Source: Variovorax paradoxus (GTDB lineage Bacteria > Pseudomonadota > Gammaproteobacteria > Burkholderiales > Burkholderiaceae_C). From it: a stretch of DNA of 64,000 nucleotides. The translations under genes were made by a program, and so were the position numbers. The stretch is taken from NCBI RefSeq assembly GCF_024734665.1, contig NZ_CP102931.1, positions 1,734,001 to 1,798,000 on the forward strand. The letters run 5' to 3'. Positions 10,667 through 18,824 of this stretch are shown here, in pieces (the first letter of the stretch is position 1; each line of letters opens with the position of its first letter). The notes beneath the pieces are model-generated. The model worked only from the letters and a program-made list of their open reading frames with translations, made no database searches and was not told where the DNA came from.

Positions 10667-11620
10667 TCAGCCGACCGCCTTGATGAGCTTGTCGCGTCCT
10701 GCCTTCGCCAGCATGGACGCGACGGCGCAAGAGGCGAGTCGTGCGGGCTCGGAATCGGCGCGGCTCGTGAGGATCACCGGCACCTTGGTGCCAAGCACGA
10801 TGCCCGCTGCATAGGCGCCACCGAGAAAGGTGAGGCTCTTGGCGAGCATGTTGCCCGCGTCCAGGTCGGGCACGATGAGCACGTTGGCGCGGCCCGCAAC
10901 CGGCGAGGTGATGCCCTTGATGCGCGCGGCCTCGGCGTCGATGGCGTTGTCCATCGCCAGAGGGCCGTCGAGCACCGCGCCGGTGATCTGGCCGCGATCG
11001 GCCATCTTGCATAGCACGGCGGCATCGAGCGTTGACGGCACTTTCGGGTTGACGGTTTCCGTTGCCGAGAGCACGGCCACGCGCACCGCCGGCATCTGCA
11101 GCGCATGCGCAAGGTCGATGGCGTTCTGCACGATGTCGACCTTCTCTTCGAGCGTGGGCGCGATGTTGATGGCCGCATCCGAAATGATCAGCGGCTGTGC
11201 GTGGCCGGGTATGTCCATCACGAAGCAATGACTGATGCGGCGCGAGGTGCGCAGGCCGCCTTCGCGGCGCACGACTGCGCCCATCAGTTCGTCGGTGTGG
11301 AGGCTGCCCTTCATCAATGCATCGACCTCGCCGCGCAGTGCCATTGCGACGGCGGCATCGGCTGCGGCATGGCTGTGTGGTGCGTCGACGATGGTGACGT
11401 TCGAGATGTCGGCTCCTATCTCGCGCGCCGCGGCTTCGATCTTTGCGCGAGGGCCGACCAGCGTAGGCGCAATGAGGCCCAGTGCCGTTGAGGAGAGTGC
11501 TGCTTCGAGCGACACAGCGTTGGCGGGGTGGACCACTGCAACGCGCAACGGAGGCAGGTTGCGCGCGGCTGCGATCAGGCGGTCGTAGTGCGGATGGGCT
11601 GCGAGGGTCGAAGACGCCAT
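10667..11620 (-). CDS. Phosphate acetyl/butyryltransferase family protein
   Basis: This 317-residue protein of the PTA_PTB family exchanges an acyl group between CoA and phosphate. Family features include MKGSLHTDELMGAVV, the SDAAINIAPTLEEK segment and the C-terminal GGAYAAGIVLG stretch. The ATG at 11620 has an excellent AGGAG ribosome site; longer in-frame starts run back through the intergenic promoter region. It converges on the indolepyruvate oxidoreductase gene with a 10-base gap. It could use acyl-CoA made by that enzyme, which is inference. No acetate/butyrate kinase gene is adjacent. Confidence 0.88.
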   Translation of the reverse strand: MASSTLAAHPHYDRLIAAARNLPPLRVAVVHPANAVSLEAALSSTALGLIAPTLVGPRAKIEAAAREIGADISNVTIVDAPHSHAAADAAVAMALRGEVDALMKGSLHTDELMGAVVRREGGLRTSRRISHCFVMDIPGHAQPLIISDAAINIAPTLEEKVDIVQNAIDLAHALQMPAVRVAVLSATETVNPKVPSTLDAAVLCKMADRGQITGAVLDGPLAMDNAIDAEAARIKGITSPVAGRANVLIVPDLDAGNMLAKSLTFLGGAYAAGIVLGTKVPVILTSRADSEPARLASCAVASMLAKAGRDKLIKAVG

Positions 11621-11693
11621 GCGGGCTCCTGAAGGTGAAGGGGAGGGAGTGTGTTGCCGCAACGGTACTTGAAAAAAAAGTTGATCGAGGCAG

Positions 11694-11722
11694 TTGACGA
11701 TTGTGTAAAGACTATTTACAGT
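11694..11722 (+). promoter_or_regulatory. Promoter with embedded palindromic operator
   Basis: A sigma-70-type pair is visible: TTGACG, 17 bases, TACAGT. A perfect inverted repeat TGTAAA-N5-TTTACA (11704-11720) covers the spacer and -10 region, where a dimeric repressor would block RNA polymerase. A small gene with its own ribosome site and terminator follows. Confidence 0.5.
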
Positions 11723-11755
11723 CCAAACCCAGTCAACGCCAACAGGACACACATC

Positions 11756-11965
11756 GTGAAAGCCGCACAGATCCGCATCTACAGCACCTGCCCCGCATCG
11801 GGCAATGTGTTCGTGCGTATCGCATCGCATGCCGGCCTCAGCTTTGGTCTGCTGCCGTCGTCGCAACAGCTCGATCAGTCCCCGTATTCCATGCAGAAGC
11901 CGCAGACCAATCTGTGGTCGTGCGATTACGAGGATCAGGTGCAACCGGGTGGAGGAAGCGCATAG
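11756..11965 (+). CDS. Small hypothetical protein (69 aa) in its own transcription unit
   Basis: I do not recognise this protein. It has 69 residues from a GTG start with AGGA 8 bases upstream. Support comes from packaging rather than homology: a promoter with operator just upstream and a strong hairpin terminator 25 bases after the stop. The N-terminal half looks like a compact beta-rich fold; the C-terminus is polar with a GGGS end. An in-frame ATG at 11651 would start upstream of the promoter and is unlikely. It lies immediately before the tRNA array. Confidence 0.5.
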   Translation: MKAAQIRIYSTCPASGNVFVRIASHAGLSFGLLPSSQQLDQSPYSMQKPQTNLWSCDYEDQVQPGGGSA

Positions 11966-11990
11966 GCGCAGACCTCCCAAGCTCTCTCGA

Positions 11991-12033
11991 AAAGAGGCCC
12001 GGACACCGCAAGGTTCCGGGCCTCTTTGTTTTT
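11991..12033 (+). terminator. Rho-independent terminator of the 69-aa gene
   Basis: A 12-base-pair stem AAAGAGGCCCGG / CCGGGCCTCTTT with a 13-base loop is followed by GTTTTT. It separates the small gene from the tRNA array. Confidence 0.9.
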
Positions 12034-12095
12034 CGCGTCACTCATCTTCTCAAGCAGCGATCGTGCTGCATGACACCGGGCTCCGGCCTCGTGAA

Positions 12096-12104
12096 CGCTC
12101 TTTA
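12096..12104 (+). promoter_or_regulatory. boxA-like antitermination element in the tRNA-array leader
   Basis: CGCTCTTTA followed by AAAAATT matches the boxA core (GCTCTTTA) of ribosomal RNA leaders, which recruits NusB/NusE to prevent early termination. It lies about 70 bases before the first tRNA. No clear -35/-10 pair was found between it and the preceding terminator. Confidence 0.5.
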
Positions 12105-12173
12105 AAAATTCGCAAGCACCGAGGCGAGACCGGCCACTGGAACGGATCGTCGCCTCACACCATCTTTCATTCA

Positions 12174-12250
12174 GCCCTGGTGACGCAATTGGTAGACGTG
12201 TCCGCCTTAGAAGCGGAATCCTGGGAGTTCGAGTCTCCCCTGGGGCACCA
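12174..12250 (+). tRNA. tRNA-Leu (TAG), atypical short variable loop
   Basis: A complete cloverleaf with acceptor GCCCTGG/CTGGGGC, D stem ACG/CGT, anticodon stem TCCGC/GCGGA around CTTAGAA (anticodon TAG), T stem GGGAG/CTCCC, discriminator A and an encoded CCA. Leucine tRNAs normally have a long variable arm; here the variable loop is only five bases (ATCCT). It is the first member of a seven-gene array. Confidence 0.8.
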
Positions 12251-12270
12251 ATTTTTCTTCTCTTTTTTCT

Positions 12271-12348
12271 CTGGGTGTAGTGTCAATCTGGTAGACGGCC
12301 TGCCTTGGAAGCAGGAGGCTGCAGGTTCAAATCCTGCCACTCAGACCA
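12271..12348 (+). tRNA. tRNA-Pro (TGG), divergent
   Basis: Acceptor CTGGGTG/CACTCAG, anticodon stem CCTGC/GCAGG around CTTGGAA (anticodon TGG), T stem GCAGG/CCTGC, discriminator A, encoded CCA. C1:G72 and A73 agree with proline identity. The D arm (GTC/GAC) is unusual, with extra bases at positions 8-12. A T/C-rich 20-base spacer separates it from the Leu gene. Confidence 0.75.
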
Positions 12349-12374
12349 TCTTTTTTCTTCGTCTTTTTTTCCAC

Positions 12375-12450
12375 GCGTGTGTAGCTCAACTGGCAGAGCA
12401 CTGGACTCCAAACCCAACGGTTGAAGGTTCGACTCCTTCCGCGCGCGCCA
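12375..12450 (+). tRNA. tRNA-Trp (CCA), weak anticodon stem
   Basis: Acceptor GCGTGTG/CGCGCGC, D stem GCTC/GAGC, loop CTCCAAA (anticodon CCA), T stem GAAGG/CCTTC, discriminator G and encoded CCA. The anticodon stem CTGGA/CCCAA has mismatches at both ends (C-A and A-C), leaving three pairs. It is either degenerating or specialised. Confidence 0.75.
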
Positions 12451-12458
12451 ATCTTTTC

Positions 12459-12534
12459 TGGCCCTTCGCCTAGTGGCCCAAGGCACCGGGTTTTGATCCC
12501 GGCATCCAAGGTTCGAATCCTTGAGGGTCTGCCA
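12459..12534 (+). tRNA. tRNA-Gln (TTG), divergent
   Basis: Anticodon stem CCGGG/CCCGG around TTTTGAT (anticodon TTG), D stem GCC/GGC, T stem CAAGG/CCTTG, discriminator G, encoded CCA. The first acceptor pair is a T-T mismatch; a weak first pair is a known identity feature of glutamine tRNA. It lies 8 bases after the Trp gene. Confidence 0.8.
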
Positions 12535-12546
12535 GTTTTCTCTTTC

Positions 12547-12622
12547 GTTCCGCTAACTCAGTGGCCAGAGTGCCTCCCTGTCCAGGAGGAAGCCAGGGGT
12601 TCGACTCCCCTGCGGAACGCCA
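12547..12622 (+). tRNA. tRNA-Asp (GTC), second divergent copy
   Basis: A perfect acceptor GTTCCGC/GCGGAAC, anticodon stem CCTCC/GGAGG around CTGTCCA (anticodon GTC), T stem AGGGG/CCCCT, discriminator G, encoded CCA. It reads the same codons as the standard-looking tRNA-Asp at 61963 but differs from it through every stem. Confidence 0.82.
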
Positions 12623-12630
12623 TATATTCC

Positions 12631-12704
12631 GGCGCGATAGCAAAGTGGCTATGCAACGGATTGCAAATCCGTCCACCCCGGTTCGAATCCGGGTCGCGCC
12701 TCCA
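12631..12704 (+). tRNA. tRNA-Cys (GCA)
   Basis: Acceptor GGCGCGA/TCGCGCC, loop TTGCAAA (anticodon GCA) on a perfect stem, discriminator T and encoded CCA: all normal for cysteine. It is the most canonical member of the array. It starts 8 bases after the Asp gene. Confidence 0.9.
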
Positions 12705-12729
12705 TTCATCCATCGATCCATCCACTTTT

Positions 12730-12806
12730 TCCCCGATAGCTCAGTTGGTAGTAGCAGCGCACTGTTAATGCGCGTGTCACACGTTCGATCCGTGTTCGGG
12801 GAGCCA
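12730..12806 (+). tRNA. tRNA-Asn (GTT), altered D arm
   Basis: Acceptor TCCCCGA/TCGGGGA, anticodon stem GCGCA/TGCGC around CTGTTAA (anticodon GTT), T stem ACACG/CGTGT, discriminator G, encoded CCA. The D stem is only GCT/AGC with an enlarged loop (GGTAGTAGC), unlike the usual four-pair stem. It is the last member of the array. Confidence 0.85.
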
Positions 12807-12879
12807 AAAAATCTGTCCATCTTTCGCATGGGCGCCAGCACCATACTCGAACGCAAAAATCCCAAAGGAGCAGCGAAGC

Positions 12880-13596
12880 ATGAAACCCGAAGTCCAACAG
12901 AACAAGATCGTCGTGCTCTCTGGCTCCGGTGTGAGTGCCGAAAGCGGCCTGCCCACGTTCCGCGATGCCAAGGGCCTGTGGAACACCTACTCGTGGCAGG
13001 AACTCGCAAGCCCTGAAGGCTGGCGAAAGCATCCCGAGGCGGTGCTGGCCTTCTACAACGAGCGACGTGCGAAGGCGTGGCAGGCGCAGCCGAACGCCGC
13101 ACACCTCGCCATTGCATCGCTCGAGTCGGCGTACGAAGTCGTGATCGTCACGCAGAACGTCGATGCGCTGCACGAGCGTGCGGGTTCGCGCAACGTGCTG
13201 CACGTGCACGGGCAACTCGCGTATGCGCGCGGCACATCCGAGCCTGAACCCAGGCGCTACCGCATCGACGGCGAACCCATTGCCATGGGCCAGTTGTGCG
13301 AGGACGGCACGCAACTGCGGCCCGACATCGTGTGGTTCGGCGAAGCGGTGCAGCACTTCGACGAAGCTGAGCTGCATGTGGCCACCGCGGCGCGCGTGCT
13401 GGTGGTGGGTACGTCGCTCACTGTCAACCCGGCGGCATCGCTGGTGCGGTACGCGGATCGCTCTGCGCAGAAGGTGCTGGTTGCGCTCGACATGGAAGAC
13501 GTGCCGCACGGATTCACCTTCCTGCAAGGCAAGGCCACCGACGTGGTGCCGGCCTTGGTGGCAAGGTGGCTTCACGAGGCGAGAGCCGGCACGTGA
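12880..13596 (+). CDS. Sir2-family NAD-dependent protein deacylase, zinc-free type
   Basis: A 238-residue sirtuin. The NAD-binding loop is GSGVSAESGLPTFRD (residues 14-28; the usual GAG is GSG), the QNVD motif is at 92-95, the general-base His is H110 in HVHG, and FGEAV follows near 153. The two CxxC zinc pairs of classical CobB are missing: there is no cysteine between H110 and C140. This is the short, metal-free form seen in scattered bacteria and phages. AAAGGAG precedes the ATG. It lies 73 bases after the tRNA array and ends at its own terminator. Targets are unknown. Confidence 0.9.
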   Translation: MKPEVQQNKIVVLSGSGVSAESGLPTFRDAKGLWNTYSWQELASPEGWRKHPEAVLAFYNERRAKAWQAQPNAAHLAIASLESAYEVVIVTQNVDALHERAGSRNVLHVHGQLAYARGTSEPEPRRYRIDGEPIAMGQLCEDGTQLRPDIVWFGEAVQHFDEAELHVATAARVLVVGTSLTVNPAASLVRYADRSAQKVLVALDMEDVPHGFTFLQGKATDVVPALVARWLHEARAGT

Positions 13597-13621
13597 TTGC
13601 CCTGCAGCGCTGCTTCAACCC

Positions 13622-13656
13622 AAGCCCGTCATCGTGTCGATGACGGGCTTTTTTAT
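13622..13656 (+). terminator. Strong rho-independent terminator after the Sir2 gene
   Basis: A perfect 13-pair stem AAGCCCGTCATCG / CGATGACGGGCTT with a three-base loop TGT, followed by TTTTATT. Confidence 0.93.
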
Positions 13657-14176
13657 TGATCTTTCTTGTTCGAATCGATCAGCGCATCGTGCAGGCAGTG
13701 TCTGTAGTTCTTTCTCCGCATGCCGTTTGGCACTGGTCGTGCGCAGGTGCCTCGCTTAAGGTACGGGCCTTGCGAACCCGATGTAGCGCGGACCGCCAAC
13801 ACCTCGCAGACCCTTTGGCTCATTGTGTCTTCGCGAGATGAGGCGGCTTAAAACTTATTGTTTTGTTTCGGACGTCTTCTGAAGAAATAGACAAAAAAGA
13901 TCCGTGCAACAGATCGATAAAGCAGGAAAAGTTTGTTAAAAATCGGGCCTTCCGTTGCGTACTTGTTTCGATTTGATCGAATGGAAAGTGGGCACGAATG
14001 GATTCGAAGGCGCGATGTAATGCGAAAGCGTTGCGCCTGAAAGATGGGGCGACCCCCGCTGTGTCACCAGCGCTGGCGCCATCCGGTTGCGATTCGCTGC
14101 CGTCCTCCTGCAAGTGGAGGGCGGCTGGTTCCACGGTGTCCTCAATGGGCACGCAATTTCTGAGGGAGTTGATCTC
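13657..14176. other. 520-base intergenic region upstream of hcp
   Basis: No convincing gene. It holds a sigma-54-like element near 13727 and a conspicuously AT-rich patch (about 13850-13950) in otherwise GC-rich DNA, which fits a long regulatory leader for the type VI effector operon. The last 16 bases carry the hcp ribosome site. Confidence 0.6.
13727..13743 (+). promoter_or_regulatory. Candidate sigma-54 (-24/-12) promoter upstream of hcp
   Basis: TTGGCAC-TGGTC-GTGCG matches the -24 element perfectly and has GC at the right distance for the -12 element (consensus TTGC; here GTGC). Type VI hcp/vgrG operons are often sigma-54 dependent. Its distance (about 430 bases) from hcp lowers confidence. 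Confidence 0.35.
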
Positions 14177-14659
14177 ATGGCAGTAGACATGTTCATGCGC
14201 GTTGAAGGCGCAAACGGCGAATCGAAGGACTCGAACCACAAGGAGTGGACGGACATCAAGTCGTTTGCGTGGGGAGCAACGCAGCCTGGAAACATGGTCA
14301 GCGGCGGTGGCGGCGGGGTTGGCAAGGCCAGCTTCAACGACCTGCAGGTGCTGGCACGCATCGACAAGGCGGCGCCGTCGGTGCTCAAGAACTGCGCCAG
14401 CGGCAAGCACCTGGCGAAGATCGAAGTGTCAGTCTGCAAGGCCGGCGGTTCGCAGATCGAATACACCCGCGTCACGCTCGAAGAAGTACTGGTCACCTCG
14501 GTGCAGTACACGGCCGAGCAGGGTTCGGACGCCGTGTTCGTGCAGTACGCCTTCCAGGCCGCAAAGGTGAAGCAGCAGTACTGGGAACAGACCGACAAGG
14601 GCGGCAAGGGCGCCGAGACGGTGCTGGGCTGGAACATCAAGGAAAACAAGGAAGCATGA
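14177..14659 (+). CDS. hcp: Hcp (TssD) type VI secretion tube protein
   Basis: A 160-residue Hcp protein beginning MAVDMFMRVEG, with the family segments DSNHKEWTDIKSFAWG and VTLEEVLVTSVQY. Hcp hexamers stack into the inner tube of the type VI apparatus and carry small effectors. The ATG at 14177 follows TGAGGGAG at good distance; an in-frame upstream ATG is not Hcp-like. It heads the effector island; vgrG follows after 74 bases. No sheath, baseplate or membrane-complex genes occur in the window, so this is a remote hcp-vgrG cluster served by an apparatus encoded elsewhere. Confidence 0.93.
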   Translation: MAVDMFMRVEGANGESKDSNHKEWTDIKSFAWGATQPGNMVSGGGGGVGKASFNDLQVLARIDKAAPSVLKNCASGKHLAKIEVSVCKAGGSQIEYTRVTLEEVLVTSVQYTAEQGSDAVFVQYAFQAAKVKQQYWEQTDKGGKGAETVLGWNIKENKEA

Positions 14660-14733
14660 GTTCCCTTTGCCGGGCGCGTTGCTCGCTTCTGCGGCACGCG
14701 CCGGGCTCGCATTGACCAGGGAGCCTTCCAGGA

Positions 14734-17700
14734 ATGACCCGCAGCTTCATCGCCCACAGCGTGTTGGGCGAGCGCCTGAAGTTCCGCTCGATGACGGGAC
14801 AGGAGCGCATCTCCGCACTGTTCGAGCATCGCGTTCGACTCATCAGCGACATGCCCAACATCCAGCCCAAGCGCATGCTGGGGGAGGACATGAGCATCGA
14901 GGTGAACCTCGCCACGGAACTCGGCGGCGCCGGCAAGCGCTTCCTGAGCGGACAGGTCACGCGCTTTGCTTACGTGGGCAAGGACGACGGCGACATGTGC
15001 GTGTACGAGGCCACGCTGCGCCCCTGGCTGTGGTACGCCACGCGGCGCTCCGACTTCAAGATCTTCCAGTTCAAGACGGCACCGCAGATCCTGCAGGAGG
15101 TGCTCGCGCCCTACGGCTATGCCATCGATGCGCGCCTGAGCGGCAACTACCGCACCTGGGACTACTGCGTGCAGTACTCGGAGAGCGACTTCAACTTCGT
15201 CAGCCGGCTCATGGAGCAGGAGGGCATCTACTACTTCTTCTCGCACGCGCAGGGCAGCCATCAGCTGGTGCTGTGCGACGGGGCGGATTCGCACACCCCC
15301 CTGCCCAGTGGTCCGGTGAAGGTGCCGTACCACGCGGGCGTGCTGGCGGCGCAGATCCTCGAGCAGGACTTCATCGACAGCTGGAGCCATTCGGAGGACA
15401 TCGCTTCGGGCAACTTCGCGGCTGACGACTACGACTTCAAGAAGCCCAACGCCGAGATCGACACAGTGCGCCAGCAGCCGGCCGGCCACAGCCGCGATGA
15501 CTTCGAGATCTACGACTGGCCCGGCGGCTACACCGAGCTGGGTGACGGCGAGAACTATGCACGCCTGCGGCTGGAGCAGCTCGCCGGGCGCCGCGAACTG
15601 GTGAGCGCCGAAGGCAACCTGCGCCACATGGCACCGGGCTACCTGTTCGAGCTGGCGCGCCATCCGAACGCCGAGGACAACCGCCGTTACCTGATCGAGG
15701 CCGTGACCTACGACTTCCAGGAGAACGCGCTGCGCGTGGTCGGTGCGGCGGACGCGGCCTACAGCGAATCGACCAGCAGCACCAGCTACCGCCAGACCTT
15801 CGAGGTGCTGCCCGACAGCGCCCCCTATCGCCCCGCGCGCGTCACGGCCAGGCCACGCACCACCGGACCGCAGACCGCGGTGGTGGTGGGCCCCGCGGGC
15901 GAAGAGATTCACACCGACGAGTACGGCCGCATCAAGGTGCAGTTTCATTGGGACCGCTATGGCCGGCGCGACGAGAACTCGTCGTGCTGGATTCGCGTGT
16001 CGCAGACCTGGGCTGGCAGCAACTACGGCGCCATGCATATCCCGCGTATCGGACAGGAGGTGATCGTCGACTTTCTCAACGGCGACCCTGACTATCCGAT
16101 CGTCACCGGCTGTGTCTACAACGCCGCGCAGATGCCGCCGTGGGAGTTGCCGCGCCACAAGACGCAGACCGGCTTCCAGACGAACTGGAGCAAGGGCGGC
16201 GGTGGCAAGCACATGCTGCGCTTCGAGGACAGCCGCGGCACCGAGCACATCGAGCTGTCGACCGACCACGGCAACACCCACCTGCACATGGGCTACCTGA
16301 TGAACCAGGGCTCGGGCGTGCAGCGCAGCTATGGCTTCGAGCTGCGCACCAACGAGTGGGGCTCCATCCGCGCGGACAAGGGCCTGCTGCTGACCACCTA
16401 CACGCAAGACTACGCGCAACGCGTCTCGCGCGACAACCCCGACGGCCACGAACACATGGGCGCCACGCTGGCGCAGAGCAACGCGCTGATGCAGGCGTCG
16501 GGTCAGGCCATCGCGGCCACCAAGGCGCTGGTCGGGTCGATGGCGCAAGGCAAGAACCAGACGCTGATGGGGCTGGTGCAGGGCGTGCAGGCCGCGGGCG
16601 GTGTTTCGCAGGCCGTGGCAGCACTGGCCGCGGGCGGCACGCCGGAAGCGGGCGTTTCCGACAACCCCGACCCGGCCATGGCCGACGCGCAGCAGATGCT
16701 CGACCTCTCGCGCAAGATCGACAAGCCCGTGGTCTCCATCGTCAGCCCCGAGGGGCAGACCATGATCAGTCCCAAGCCTATCGTGATGAGCTCGGGGCAG
16801 AGCATGTCGATGCGCGCCACCTCGGCCATGACGCTGACCACCGGCGCGCAGCTCACGCAGCTCGTTACCGGCGGCATGCTCACGCAGGTGAGCGAGGGCG
16901 GGCAGGTCAACGTGGTGTCGGGCGGCGACATCGTCTCGCACGCCAGCGCGGGCGCCGTCAACCTGGTGTCGAAGACCGATGCCTCCATGACCTCCACCGA
17001 GAGCAACGCCAACATCACCGGCCGCAAGTCGGTCGTGATCCAGGCGGCCGACCAGGACGTGTTCGTCACCGGCAAGACCAGCATCTCGCTGATCTGCGGC
17101 AAGTCGTCCATCGTGCTGCTGGCCGACGGCACGGTGAACATCAACGGCGTGAAGGGCCTCGTCAACTTCACGGGCGAGCTCGACCAGCGCGGCAGCAAGA
17201 TCTTCTTGAACTGCGATGCGCCCATCGGCAGCCAGAGCGAGGAAGCCGTGGTGGAAGACGGCGTGCCCCTGACGCCTGCGGCCGCTGCCACGTCGGCAGA
17301 GGCATCGGAGCGTGCTGTGCCCGCAGCCGCGCCGCCGGGCTACGTCACCACCGGCCTCGGCAAAGGCGTCGACGCCATCGCGGCGAGGTCGCCCACGTTG
17401 CAGAGGCAGATCAAGTTCCTGCAGGGCGAGAAATGGAATGTCAGCTATGGCCCTGCGGGCGGGGGCTCGTATGCCAACACCAATCCGGGTGTCAGGAAGA
17501 TCGTGATCGACGGCGACTACGCGAGCGACCCGTACAAGACCGCCGCCTCGCTGTCGCACGAGGTCGGGCACGCGGTCTATTCATACCGCTTCAAGCCCGA
17601 CATTTCCTCGAAGACCGCGTTCGTCAACAGCATGCTCAGCACCGAGGGCGAGGCTGCGCTGAACCAGATCCAGGTGCAGCGTGAAGTCTGGCGCGCGGCC

Positions 17701-17907
17701 AAGGTCGACATCCTCCAGGGCGCGAACCCCGCGAACGTGGAGGCCTTCAACGAGGCCTACAACGGCATGGTGAAGGGTGGTACCCGGGAGGCCGCAAGGG
17801 CCGCGGCCGGCAAGTACTACGGCACGCTCACCACATCGACCACCGGCGAGCAGTACACGCAGTACTACGGCAACTCCTACGACAAGAAATATGCCGGCAA
17901 ACACTGA
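14734..17907 (+). CDS. vgrG: VgrG spike with C-terminal putative metallopeptidase effector domain
   Basis: This 1,057-residue specialised VgrG (TssI) starts with the gp27-like region (about residues 1-370). A gp5-like OB domain follows (about 383-465), then the long beta-helical DUF2345 repeat region (about 668-832, rich in SG and VSG turns). Ordinary VgrGs end near here. The extra ~200 residues contain H942-E-V-G-H946, a zincin HExxH signature, with a downstream EGEAALNQIQ segment that may supply a third ligand. The spike would deliver this domain into rival cells. The next gene overlaps its 3' end and is the likely immunity gene. The protease assignment rests on the motif only. Confidence 0.88.
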   Translation: MTRSFIAHSVLGERLKFRSMTGQERISALFEHRVRLISDMPNIQPKRMLGEDMSIEVNLATELGGAGKRFLSGQVTRFAYVGKDDGDMCVYEATLRPWLWYATRRSDFKIFQFKTAPQILQEVLAPYGYAIDARLSGNYRTWDYCVQYSESDFNFVSRLMEQEGIYYFFSHAQGSHQLVLCDGADSHTPLPSGPVKVPYHAGVLAAQILEQDFIDSWSHSEDIASGNFAADDYDFKKPNAEIDTVRQQPAGHSRDDFEIYDWPGGYTELGDGENYARLRLEQLAGRRELVSAEGNLRHMAPGYLFELARHPNAEDNRRYLIEAVTYDFQENALRVVGAADAAYSESTSSTSYRQTFEVLPDSAPYRPARVTARPRTTGPQTAVVVGPAGEEIHTDEYGRIKVQFHWDRYGRRDENSSCWIRVSQTWAGSNYGAMHIPRIGQEVIVDFLNGDPDYPIVTGCVYNAAQMPPWELPRHKTQTGFQTNWSKGGGGKHMLRFEDSRGTEHIELSTDHGNTHLHMGYLMNQGSGVQRSYGFELRTNEWGSIRADKGLLLTTYTQDYAQRVSRDNPDGHEHMGATLAQSNALMQASGQAIAATKALVGSMAQGKNQTLMGLVQGVQAAGGVSQAVAALAAGGTPEAGVSDNPDPAMADAQQMLDLSRKIDKPVVSIVSPEGQTMISPKPIVMSSGQSMSMRATSAMTLTTGAQLTQLVTGGMLTQVSEGGQVNVVSGGDIVSHASAGAVNLVSKTDASMTSTESNANITGRKSVVIQAADQDVFVTGKTSISLICGKSSIVLLADGTVNINGVKGLVNFTGELDQRGSKIFLNCDAPIGSQSEEAVVEDGVPLTPAAAATSAEASERAVPAAAPPGYVTTGLGKGVDAIAARSPTLQRQIKFLQGEKWNVSYGPAGGGSYANTNPGVRKIVIDGDYASDPYKTAASLSHEVGHAVYSYRFKPDISSKTAFVNSMLSTEGEAALNQIQVQREVWRAAKVDILQGANPANVEAFNEAYNGMVKGGTREAARAAAGKYYGTLTTSTTGEQYTQYYGNSYDKKYAGKH

Positions 17908-18355
17908 ACCCATGAACCTGCAAGCCACGACCATGACGCTCTGGCAGGCCATCGATGCGCTGGCGGCGCAGTTGCCGTTCTCCACGCAGAAGGTCGGCCG
18001 CACGCTGTCGACCACCTTGAGCGACACGCATGCAGCGGGCGGCAACGTGTTCCGGTTCTTCGAAGGTACGCCGGTGCGCCTTGCGGATGGCACCGAGCTT
18101 GCGCACATCGACCTGCGCATCAAGCGCGAAGACGCGAGCCAGGGCTTTCTGGTGCTGGAGCTGAAGGGGCGCTGCGTGCCGATGGCCGAAGTGCGCCAGC
18201 ACTACGCCGCACTGGAACTCATCGACGTGCCGCGCGGCCGTTCGCTCGACGAAGCGAGCACCTTCACGGCCACGCTCGGCTGGGGCCGGCTGTCGTTCGG
18301 CTTCACCGAGCGCAACCCCGACTGCCTGGCCTTCGCGGCTTTCGACCCCGCATAG
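17891..18355 (+). CDS. Hypothetical protein, probable immunity protein for the VgrG metallopeptidase
   Basis: I do not recognise the family. It has 154 residues from the first ATG, which overlaps the vgrG stop by 17 bases; an ATG at 17912 would give 147 residues and is equally possible. No signal peptide or membrane segment is seen, so it would act in the cytoplasm. Tight coupling directly behind a toxin-tipped VgrG is the classic position of a cognate immunity gene. Function is inferred from position alone. Confidence 0.72.
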   Translation: MPANTEPMNLQATTMTLWQAIDALAAQLPFSTQKVGRTLSTTLSDTHAAGGNVFRFFEGTPVRLADGTELAHIDLRIKREDASQGFLVLELKGRCVPMAEVRQHYAALELIDVPRGRSLDEASTFTATLGWGRLSFGFTERNPDCLAFAAFDPA

Positions 18356-18380
18356 AACAAACCCGGAAGAAAGCAGCCTG

Positions 18381-18824
18381 ATGAAGTACCACATCCAGGA
18401 AGGCCAGTTCGACGTGCCGGACGATGGGCGCATCGATCGCTCGATGAACGTGCTGGCCATGCCCGATGGCTCCGGCACCACGCTCATCGTGAGCCGCGAC
18501 GCGCTGCGCGCGCAGGAGAGCCTGGCGCAGTTCGTCACGCGGCAGATGAACGACCTGACGCGCCAGGTGAGCCAGCTGAAGGAGGTGTCGCGCACCGACA
18601 TCGCCGTGGGGCCCGCCATTGCGAGCCTGCGCGCCATCGAGCTCGCCACGCAGTTCAAGCAGAACGGACAGGCGCTGCACCAGCGCCAGGCCGTGTTTCT
18701 CTTGCCGCAGGACGCCACCGGCAAGGCCGTGCTCATTCTCACGGCCAGTAGCCCCGTGCCGTTCGATACAGAGGCGCTCGCGCTGTGGCAGCGCACGCTC
18801 GAGAGCTTTCAGCCCAGGGCCTGA
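18381..18824 (+). CDS. Eag-type DUF1795 (DcrB-like) effector chaperone
   Basis: A 147-residue protein of the DUF1795/DcrB family, without a signal peptide. Members next to PAAR-Rhs genes (EagR/EagT6) shield the N-terminal transmembrane helices of the effector and load it on VgrG. Here the next gene, 23 bases on, is exactly such a PAAR-Rhs protein with N-terminal hydrophobic helices, which fits the rule. The start follows a GGAAG ribosome site. Confidence 0.87.
   Translation: MKYHIQEGQFDVPDDGRIDRSMNVLAMPDGSGTTLIVSRDALRAQESLAQFVTRQMNDLTRQVSQLKEVSRTDIAVGPAIASLRAIELATQFKQNGQALHQRQAVFLLPQDATGKAVLILTASSPVPFDTEALALWQRTLESFQPRA

Follow-up and report, generated by a model that had tools for sequence, protein, structure and literature searches.

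A leader ORF as the probable codon checklist of a spare tRNA array in Variovorax paradoxus

Introduction

Why bacteria and plasmids keep odd, redundant tRNA arrays, and how these are silenced and switched on, is a puzzle that a locus of Variovorax paradoxus allows us to address. The locus lies in a window of 64,000 nucleotides (contig NZ_CP102931.1, positions 1,734,001 to 1,798,000; coordinates below count from the first base of the window). A first-pass annotation, made from the sequence letters, had described seven adjacent tRNA genes as a phage- or element-derived array that could supply tRNAs after host tRNA cleavage or shutdown. We computed the open reading frame (ORF) and frame of a leader upstream of these genes, the spread of this leader, its covarying structures, the match of its codons to the array tRNAs, and the genes downstream of its copies.

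Three kinds of known system are relevant here. tRNA array units comprise about 20 or more genes. The attenuators of the trp and his operons consist of a short translated ORF with sensor codons and of a terminator that is opposed by an antiterminator. The RtcBA and Ro60-Y RNA repair operons are under the control of the activator RtcR.

Results and discussion

Seven redundant and mostly divergent tRNA genes

ARAGORN placed seven tRNA genes, for Leu, Pro, Trp, Gln, Asp, Cys, and Asn, on the forward strand at 12174-12806, that is, within 633 bases (Table 1), and together with Rfam this confirms the array as first annotated. Default Rfam scans recovered six of the seven and missed tRNA-Asn, while all seven scored 53-63 bits in a permissive scan (gathering score 29). 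The spacers are T/C-rich as had been described, with a measured range of 8-26 rather than 7-26 bases. Several of the reported structural traits are likewise present in the sequence: tRNA-Leu has a variable loop of 5 bases, tRNA-Gln starts with a T-T pair, the anticodon stem of tRNA-Trp has mismatches, and CCA ends all seven tRNAs. That most of them are unusual holds for six, which share an identity of 0.64-0.78 with the regular tRNA of the same anticodon in their own genome, but not for tRNA-Cys, which is scarcely odd (0.93). The short-loop tRNA-Leu(TAG) (12174-12250) is nearer to the regular tRNA-Thr of the genome (0.73) than to its regular tRNA-Leu(TAG) (0.66).

A whole-genome search of the 7.29-Mb genome (one contig) returned 53 tRNAs, including six of the seven array tRNAs. 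All seven array anticodons have a regular copy elsewhere in the genome, and the array is present in 20 of the 101 genus genomes, its own included (E <= 1e-40); for these two reasons we regard it as accessory. The same facts and the variable flanks bear out the earlier view that these are not seven core tRNAs. In the 19 relatives read, the gene order Leu-Pro-Trp-Glu-Gln-Asp-Tyr-Cys-Asn recurs with single genes in or out; the shortest array (L104) has three genes, and an array of 19 tRNAs (L110) has a compatible order. A Sir2 gene lies downstream in 9/19 relatives and an oxidoreductase gene upstream in 4/19, with several loci truncated by contig ends. In the window itself, a Sir2-family gene, a VgrG-type gene, and a DcrB-domain gene are located 3' of the array (12880-18824).

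Table 1 Features of the leader and the tRNA array in the window
Feature	Coordinates	Strand	Basis or remark
Promoter-like site TTGACG-17-TACAGT	11694..11722	+	consensus match only; alike in relatives
Shine-Dalgarno AGGA of leader ORF	11744..11747	+	sequence
Leader ORF, GTG start, 69 codons + TAG, codons for all seven array tRNAs	11756..11965	+	frame conservation, codon-array match
Antiterminator 5' arm GGTG-CAA-CCGGG, inside last leader codons	11938..11949	+	pairs with 11998-12007; covariation
Hairpin P1, leader stop codon in loop	11951..11977	+	covarying
Intrinsic terminator, stem 11991-12003 / 12015-12027 + T-rich tail	11991..12034	+	folding, covariation
Hairpin GCAGCGATCGTGCTGC, boxB-like, before boxA-like site	12054..12069	+	alignment by eye; relatives changed on both arms; RNA hairpin or DNA operator
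boxA-like GCTCTTTAAAAATT	12097..12110	+	only exact copy in genome
tRNA-Leu(TAG), short variable loop	12174..12250	+	ARAGORN
tRNA-Pro(TGG)	12271..12348	+	ARAGORN
tRNA-Trp(CCA)	12375..12450	+	ARAGORN
tRNA-Gln(TTG)	12459..12534	+	ARAGORN
tRNA-Asp(GTC)	12547..12622	+	ARAGORN
tRNA-Cys(GCA)	12631..12704	+	ARAGORN
tRNA-Asn(GTT)	12730..12806	+	ARAGORN, permissive Rfam scan

A conserved leader upstream of the array

The first-pass annotation had started the locus at 12096, on the boxA-like site, and had overlooked a leader at 11694-12035. This leader folds better than all 100 of its shuffles (z -4.24), and a promoter consensus scan of the region returned two promoter-like sites compared to 0.4 +/- 0.8 in shuffles. 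A consensus terminator scan with a loop limit of 8 bases did not list the leader terminator and gave a terminator count no higher than that of shuffles. A conserved gene spanning the whole ORF 11651-11965 was considered and dropped; only the stretch from the GTG at 11756 holds. The codon in the P1 loop, which in the window is the stop at 11963, is TAG in 64, TAA in 14, TGA in 3, and a sense codon in none of the 81 genus loci. When the Shine-Dalgarno-GTG motif was sought blind to frame in these loci, it was in frame with the stop in all 70 that have the motif. The predicted leader ORF has the start and the ribosome site of the translated ORF of an attenuator. In the genus, leaders measure 55-69 codons before arrays, 46-47 before RNA ligase genes, and 35-36 in five loci lacking tRNAs (the start of L199 is miscalled). 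Constraint on the peptide sequence is weak, with dN/dS-like values of 0.62-0.80 in four groups and of 2.22 in a fifth (five members, 23 informative changes); we give these values little weight.

In 48 of 115 leader-array gaps, a boxA-like site is found past the terminator and ahead of the first tRNA; the reversed pattern occurs in none. No 16S gene was found in the V. paradoxus genome and thus no rRNA-leader boxA for comparison; rRNA operons seem to be absent or masked in this genome sequence.

In a protein search, the leader ORF accompanied the array in 18/19 loci despite differing neighbours, and the lone exception (L102) also has the RNA element, which is found upstream of the array in 19/19 relatives and upstream of other arrays as well. 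Its last 105 bases match in 53 of the 101 genus genomes (E <= 1e-5) and at two further places in the own genome. The loci fall into those with the array type of the window (19/19), those with a mostly Arg/His mini-array (L142-L171, with at least one tRNA within 1 kb in 30/30), those with long arrays, and loci without tRNAs. Among 397 family genomes from 126 genera, 75 genomes in 40 genera matched a covariance model of the element (E <= 1e-4), the weakest matches being plain terminators; at E <= 1e-8 the model matched 53 family genomes in 27 genera. Across the order, matches were obtained in 9 of 349 genomes (E <= 1e-6), three from the own family, four from f29, and two from f22. At three f29 loci (L342, L344, L346), the same strand carries two leaders, separated by 2.5 to 3.2 kb.

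Rfam returned no family at its cut-off for the leader element; apart from the tRNAs there were sub-threshold matches only, and a known Rfam RNA was therefore dropped as an identity of the leader. The T-box covariance model gave no match at its gathering score, nor any up to E 5 in 11500-12900.

The leader lists codons for the tRNAs of its array

The window leader has between 1 and 8 codons for each of the seven array tRNAs, its sole TGG standing 16 codons before the stop. We asked how far leader codons follow array content in general. Outside the genus there were 92 places (E <= 1e-4), of which 80 were read and the remaining 12 lie at E 3.5e-6 or worse; 17 of the 80 (L295-L311) were excluded as plain terminators or gene ends. 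With the 81 genus loci this gave 144 leaders, and the codon tests omit five of them (L105, L199, L234, L262, L266) for start or contig-end problems. The other 139 were reduced to 65 representatives of less than 75% similarity, 40 with arrays of at least two isotypes, 20 without an array, and 5 with one isotype. Arrays were read to 5-6 kb or to a gap of 1.5 kb, and those of further loci in part to no more than 1.5 kb. Kinship makes the loci non-independent, an effect that similarity cuts and pair contrasts reduce without removing it.

In the 40 non-redundant pairs of leader and array, a leader codon was missing for 3 of 340 amino acids served by the array compared to 73 of 460 unserved ones. 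Two of the three misses come from L241, the start of which is probably miscalled and which was retained. Randomisation under fixed row and column totals gave an expectation of 17.4 +/- 2.7 misses, and none of the 3799 runs was as low as 3. The 27 arrays of 2-9 isotypes had 0/135 misses (8.9 +/- 2.2 expected). The match extends to anticodons: 370 of 379 array tRNAs have a cognate leader codon, and the 9 misses compare to 33.2 +/- 4.3 expected with margins fixed (0/5499 as low, the lowest being 19) or to 28.9-32.1 expected under alternative cuts of the leader end. AGA or AGG occurs in 5/5 leaders whose array has Arg-TCT or Arg-CCT and in 5/35 others, TGG in 16/16 leaders of Trp arrays and in 11/24 others, and a Cys codon in 18/18 leaders of Cys arrays and in 16/22 others. 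Among the same 40 pairs, no match was seen for Lys-CTT (codon in 4/7 leaders vs 19/33 others) or Thr-TGT (5/6 vs 34/34).

The two wrong frames gave 99 and 102 misses compared to 100.4 and 96.1 expected, and the antisense strand 62 compared to 70.0, which is slightly low (z -1.9); none of these is a significant match. The true frame reached z -6.8, and z -4.0 with just 22 leaders under 50% similarity. The margin-fixed randomisation, the wrong frames, and the antisense strand rule out composition, leader length, and array size as causes of the codon match. In 34 close pairs with differing arrays, 60 codon counts shifted in the direction of the array and 25 in the opposite one, and 85 were unchanged. 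Nine further loci of the same family, some with leaders resembling earlier ones, had 0/39 tRNAs without a codon (4.6 expected, P 0.005), and in other families a codon was lacking for 4/23 tRNAs, two of the four with uncertain starts. The sensor codons of the leader hence fit the genes that they would control, as they do in attenuators.

These data bear on a more general translation-stress attenuator, in which any slowing of ribosomes, by antibiotic or starvation, would open the array and no single codon would be decisive. The identical anatomy would suffice for it, and two known cases point the same way. For the PA5471.1 leader of armZ in Pseudomonas aeruginosa, transcription attenuation by the leader peptide under ribosome impairment has been proposed; this leader controls an efflux anti-repressor, and the excerpt of that paper describes no codon checklist (PMC12057347). 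The trn operon of Anabaena PCC 7120, a redundant tRNA array, is silent normally and induced by translational stress such as translation inhibitors, according to the excerpted account, in which it is repressed by the protein TrcR, unlike the array of the window, which a leader would control; the word "leader" does not occur in the text (PMC10272220). Such a general attenuator would leave unexplained why codons, including those for rare isoacceptors, track the array tRNAs in the true frame only, and why leaders without tRNAs are shorter (median 45 codons in 20 representatives compared to 63.5 in 40 with an array). We therefore consider it unlikely.

Terminator, antiterminator, and a second reading of the leader

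P1 and the terminator covary, with 115 doubly changed cells compared to 29.2 in shuffles. The duplex of the CCGGG arm with the terminator 5' arm has an energy of -16.0 compared to -15.24 +/- 0.26 when partners are swapped (fraction 0.002, 38 representatives), to -13.0 with shuffled arms, and to -12.7 with another leader segment. In an alignment of 76 sequences, doubly changed cells number 16 in the antiterminator helix compared to 7.6 in shuffles (0/500 as high). Its core pairs show little variation, and the share of sequences in which the outer three are paired ranges from about a fifth to six tenths. In L272, the leader has ACCTGG opposite CCAGGT. Folding of the nascent stretch as far as the terminator loop predicts five or more antiterminator pairs in 143/144 loci and 58/58 representatives; shuffled arms reach five in 647 of 1160 folds. 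By folding and covariation, terminator and antiterminator are mutually exclusive and overlap the end of the ORF.

Omission of the last 6 leader codons costs no checklist codon, and with 10 or 12 omitted the misses rise to 18 and 38; the end of the list thus falls roughly at the point from which a stalled ribosome would start covering the antiterminator arm. Sole codons lie at a median of 25 codons upstream of the stop. A few lie at 8-10 and are poorly explained by the model, as a ribosome stalled there would partly cover the antiterminator arm.

The leader might instead encode a small protein and end in a terminator of its own, ahead of an array that has a separate downstream promoter. The terminator does separate leader and tRNAs, with the boxA-like site beyond it, and a promoter at 12035-12173 is conceivable, although the consensus scan for the sigma-70 type found none there. 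However, the peptide is poorly constrained whereas its codon set tracks the array, and a coding arm covaries with a terminator arm, which makes a separate protein gene highly improbable.

A model of ribosome-mediated attenuation

Of the accounts that explain why the codons follow the array, attenuation with a checklist is the simplest. We judge it quite probable that the array is a reserve of spare tRNAs whose transcription is attenuated through the ribosome, and that the leader serves as a codon checklist, with a codon for almost all the tRNAs for which its array can substitute. Counting against this reading are the misses in other families, the lack of a match for Lys-CTT and Thr-TGT, the few sole codons close to the stop, the weak constraint on the peptide, the near-invariance of the strongest antiterminator pairs, the frequency with which shuffled arms reach five pairs, and the leaders that have neither tRNAs nor a repair gene behind them. 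The leader transcript would, on this view, be translated from the GTG at 11756. If all codons are read promptly, the ribosome would reach the stop at 11963 and cover CCGGG, so that the terminator at 11991-12034 would form and transcription would stop short of the tRNAs. Should a listed tRNA be absent, cleaved, or uncharged, the ribosome would stall farther upstream, and CCGGG, together with GGTG, would pair with the terminator 5' arm and allow the polymerase to read through into the array, possibly aided by the boxB/boxA-like site past the terminator. We infer that stalling is the on-switch and that tRNA cleavage is the natural trigger. As the leader peptide carries a codon per array tRNA, the cell probably produces the spares only once its own tRNAs are exhausted or cleaved; the leader in this way lends indirect backing to the earlier suggestion of supply after tRNA loss.

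RNA repair genes behind further copies of the leader

The second leader of the V. paradoxus genome (L142, G000:C1:4897700-4903300, minus strand) precedes extra Arg-ACG and His-GTG tRNA genes and an HNH endonuclease gene, and it contains Arg and His codons. The third (L200 1573-2735, G000:C1:6771672 onward, plus strand) stands 31 bases before an RNA ligase gene, whose product matches PF09414 and the OB-fold of PHA02142. Among 29 leaders without tRNAs, an RNA ligase gene follows 31-47 bases downstream in six and an RtcB gene within 6 kb in nine, five of the RtcB starts lying 316-379 bases downstream; HNH alone was found in one. At one of these loci (L270), a gene for a Ro60-type vWA-domain protein (TROVE below cut-off) starts 2.0 kb downstream and is followed by a YrlA RNA barely above cut-off and then by RtcB. 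At six family and seven genus leaders without tRNAs, no RNA ligase, RtcB, Ro60-type, or HNH gene was found. Of 115 leaders with tRNAs, 81 have an HNH endonuclease gene, 19 RtcB, and 4 a Ro60-type gene within 6 kb downstream, and 2 have a plasmid-type RNA ligase gene.

Five loci (L190, L191, L194, L195, L180) retain a leader, shortened to 35-36 codons, while the downstream tRNA is gone; at L190 the tRNAs were probably lost, since the neighbours match a mini-array locus. A second conserved stretch with GGGTGTGC and, farther downstream, GGATGTGC, which may be an RNA or a site, lies right after the terminator and ahead of the genes at L142, L163, L233, L259, L264, and L270. One or both motifs are present in 30/30 mini-array loci compared to 0/20 loci of the window class.

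Copies of the leader switch thus precede RNA repair genes, and jointly they look like a tRNA-loss regulon, in which the three leaders of the V. paradoxus genome (before the array, the Arg/His mini-array with HNH, and the RNA ligase) and the RtcB of relatives would combine replacement with repair. The nearby RNA ligases and RtcB suggest tRNA cleavage rather than plain starvation as the trigger.

Mobile elements and the origin of the array

Longer related arrays are carried on megaplasmids of Variovorax and Polaromonas. Those read have 10, 23, and 27 tRNAs in Variovorax and 19 in Polaromonas; one carries an annotated RNA ligase and three carry HNH endonucleases. The leader itself was found on four megaplasmids. 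In a genome of the same genus (G094), the RNA ligase of the array locus is 100% identical to that of Variovorax sp. RA8 plasmid 3. Because related arrays and the leader sit on megaplasmids, a link of the array to mobile elements is likely. In the window, seven genes in 633 bases, all with redundant anticodons, form the dense run that is typical of tRNA array units; their number is small, and relatives have up to 29 (L232). The array looks like a reduced form of the longer plasmid arrays, although the direction of change between the two is inferred.

A reduced array could also be decaying debris of a plasmid array with non-functional tRNAs. Its gene content is a subset of that of longer arrays, several of its tRNAs have mismatches, and some loci have a leader without any tRNA. 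Against decay, all seven tRNAs score well above the tRNA cut-off, their order is maintained across many species, and leader and array change together; debris is in our view very unlikely.

The earlier proposal of a phage or element origin gains support in its second part. Phage tRNA clusters with altered anticodon loops do exist and have been proposed, in the excerpted source, to resist anticodon nucleases (PMC10264068), so that the array might be such a cluster serving a phage. Yet coverage of 80% of the array is reached by no phage record, the 20 records listed among 574 that match span 13-23% of it, the leader has no match in phage records at E 0.01, and neither the gene order nor the leader was found in phage genomes, while the relatives are chromosomes and megaplasmids. 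We regard a phage cluster as extremely improbable and, given the absent leader match and the short array coverage, set a phage origin aside.

Comparison with known systems and implications

The array leader shares a short, presumably translated ORF, codons as sensor, and the terminator/antiterminator pair with the trp and his attenuators. Those leaders repeat one amino acid and control biosynthesis, whereas the array leader lists many and would control tRNAs and RNA repair enzymes. RtcB, a Ro60-type protein, and YrlA RNA, known from the RtcBA and Ro60-Y operons, are likewise found behind the leader in L270; the difference is a presumably translated leader 2 kb upstream of the Ro60 gene, which would exert the control. 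The tRNA array units of mycobacteria and of their plasmids have dense redundant tRNAs of divergent arms and an HNH endonuclease, and the excerpted sources give 26-27 tRNAs in M. avium compared to seven in the window (PMC12803027, PMC5966550); PMC5966550 contains neither the word "promoter" nor the word "leader". Among the matches listed from the open-licence literature, no leader or attenuator before tRNA arrays is reported. Leader-peptide attenuation as such is known, while a checklist of many codons over tRNA arrays and RNA repair is unreported in that literature, among the matches listed.

Beyond the window, it seems reasonably likely that the Burkholderiales have a widespread regulon in which a translated checklist, of up to all twenty amino acids plus rare isoacceptor codons, co-evolves with its array, and in which tRNA loss would call up altered spare tRNAs, RNA ligases (Rnl-type, RtcB), and perhaps Ro60/Y-RNA. 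The leader offers an answer to the puzzle of redundant arrays that can be tested codon by codon, joins the arrays to RNA repair, and provides a sequence signature for tRNA-loss responses. If true, the regulon would sense tRNA damage directly, through translation, and each leader would show the tRNAs that a lineage expects to lose, which would provide a lead to the anticodon nucleases and tRNase toxins that this lineage meets.
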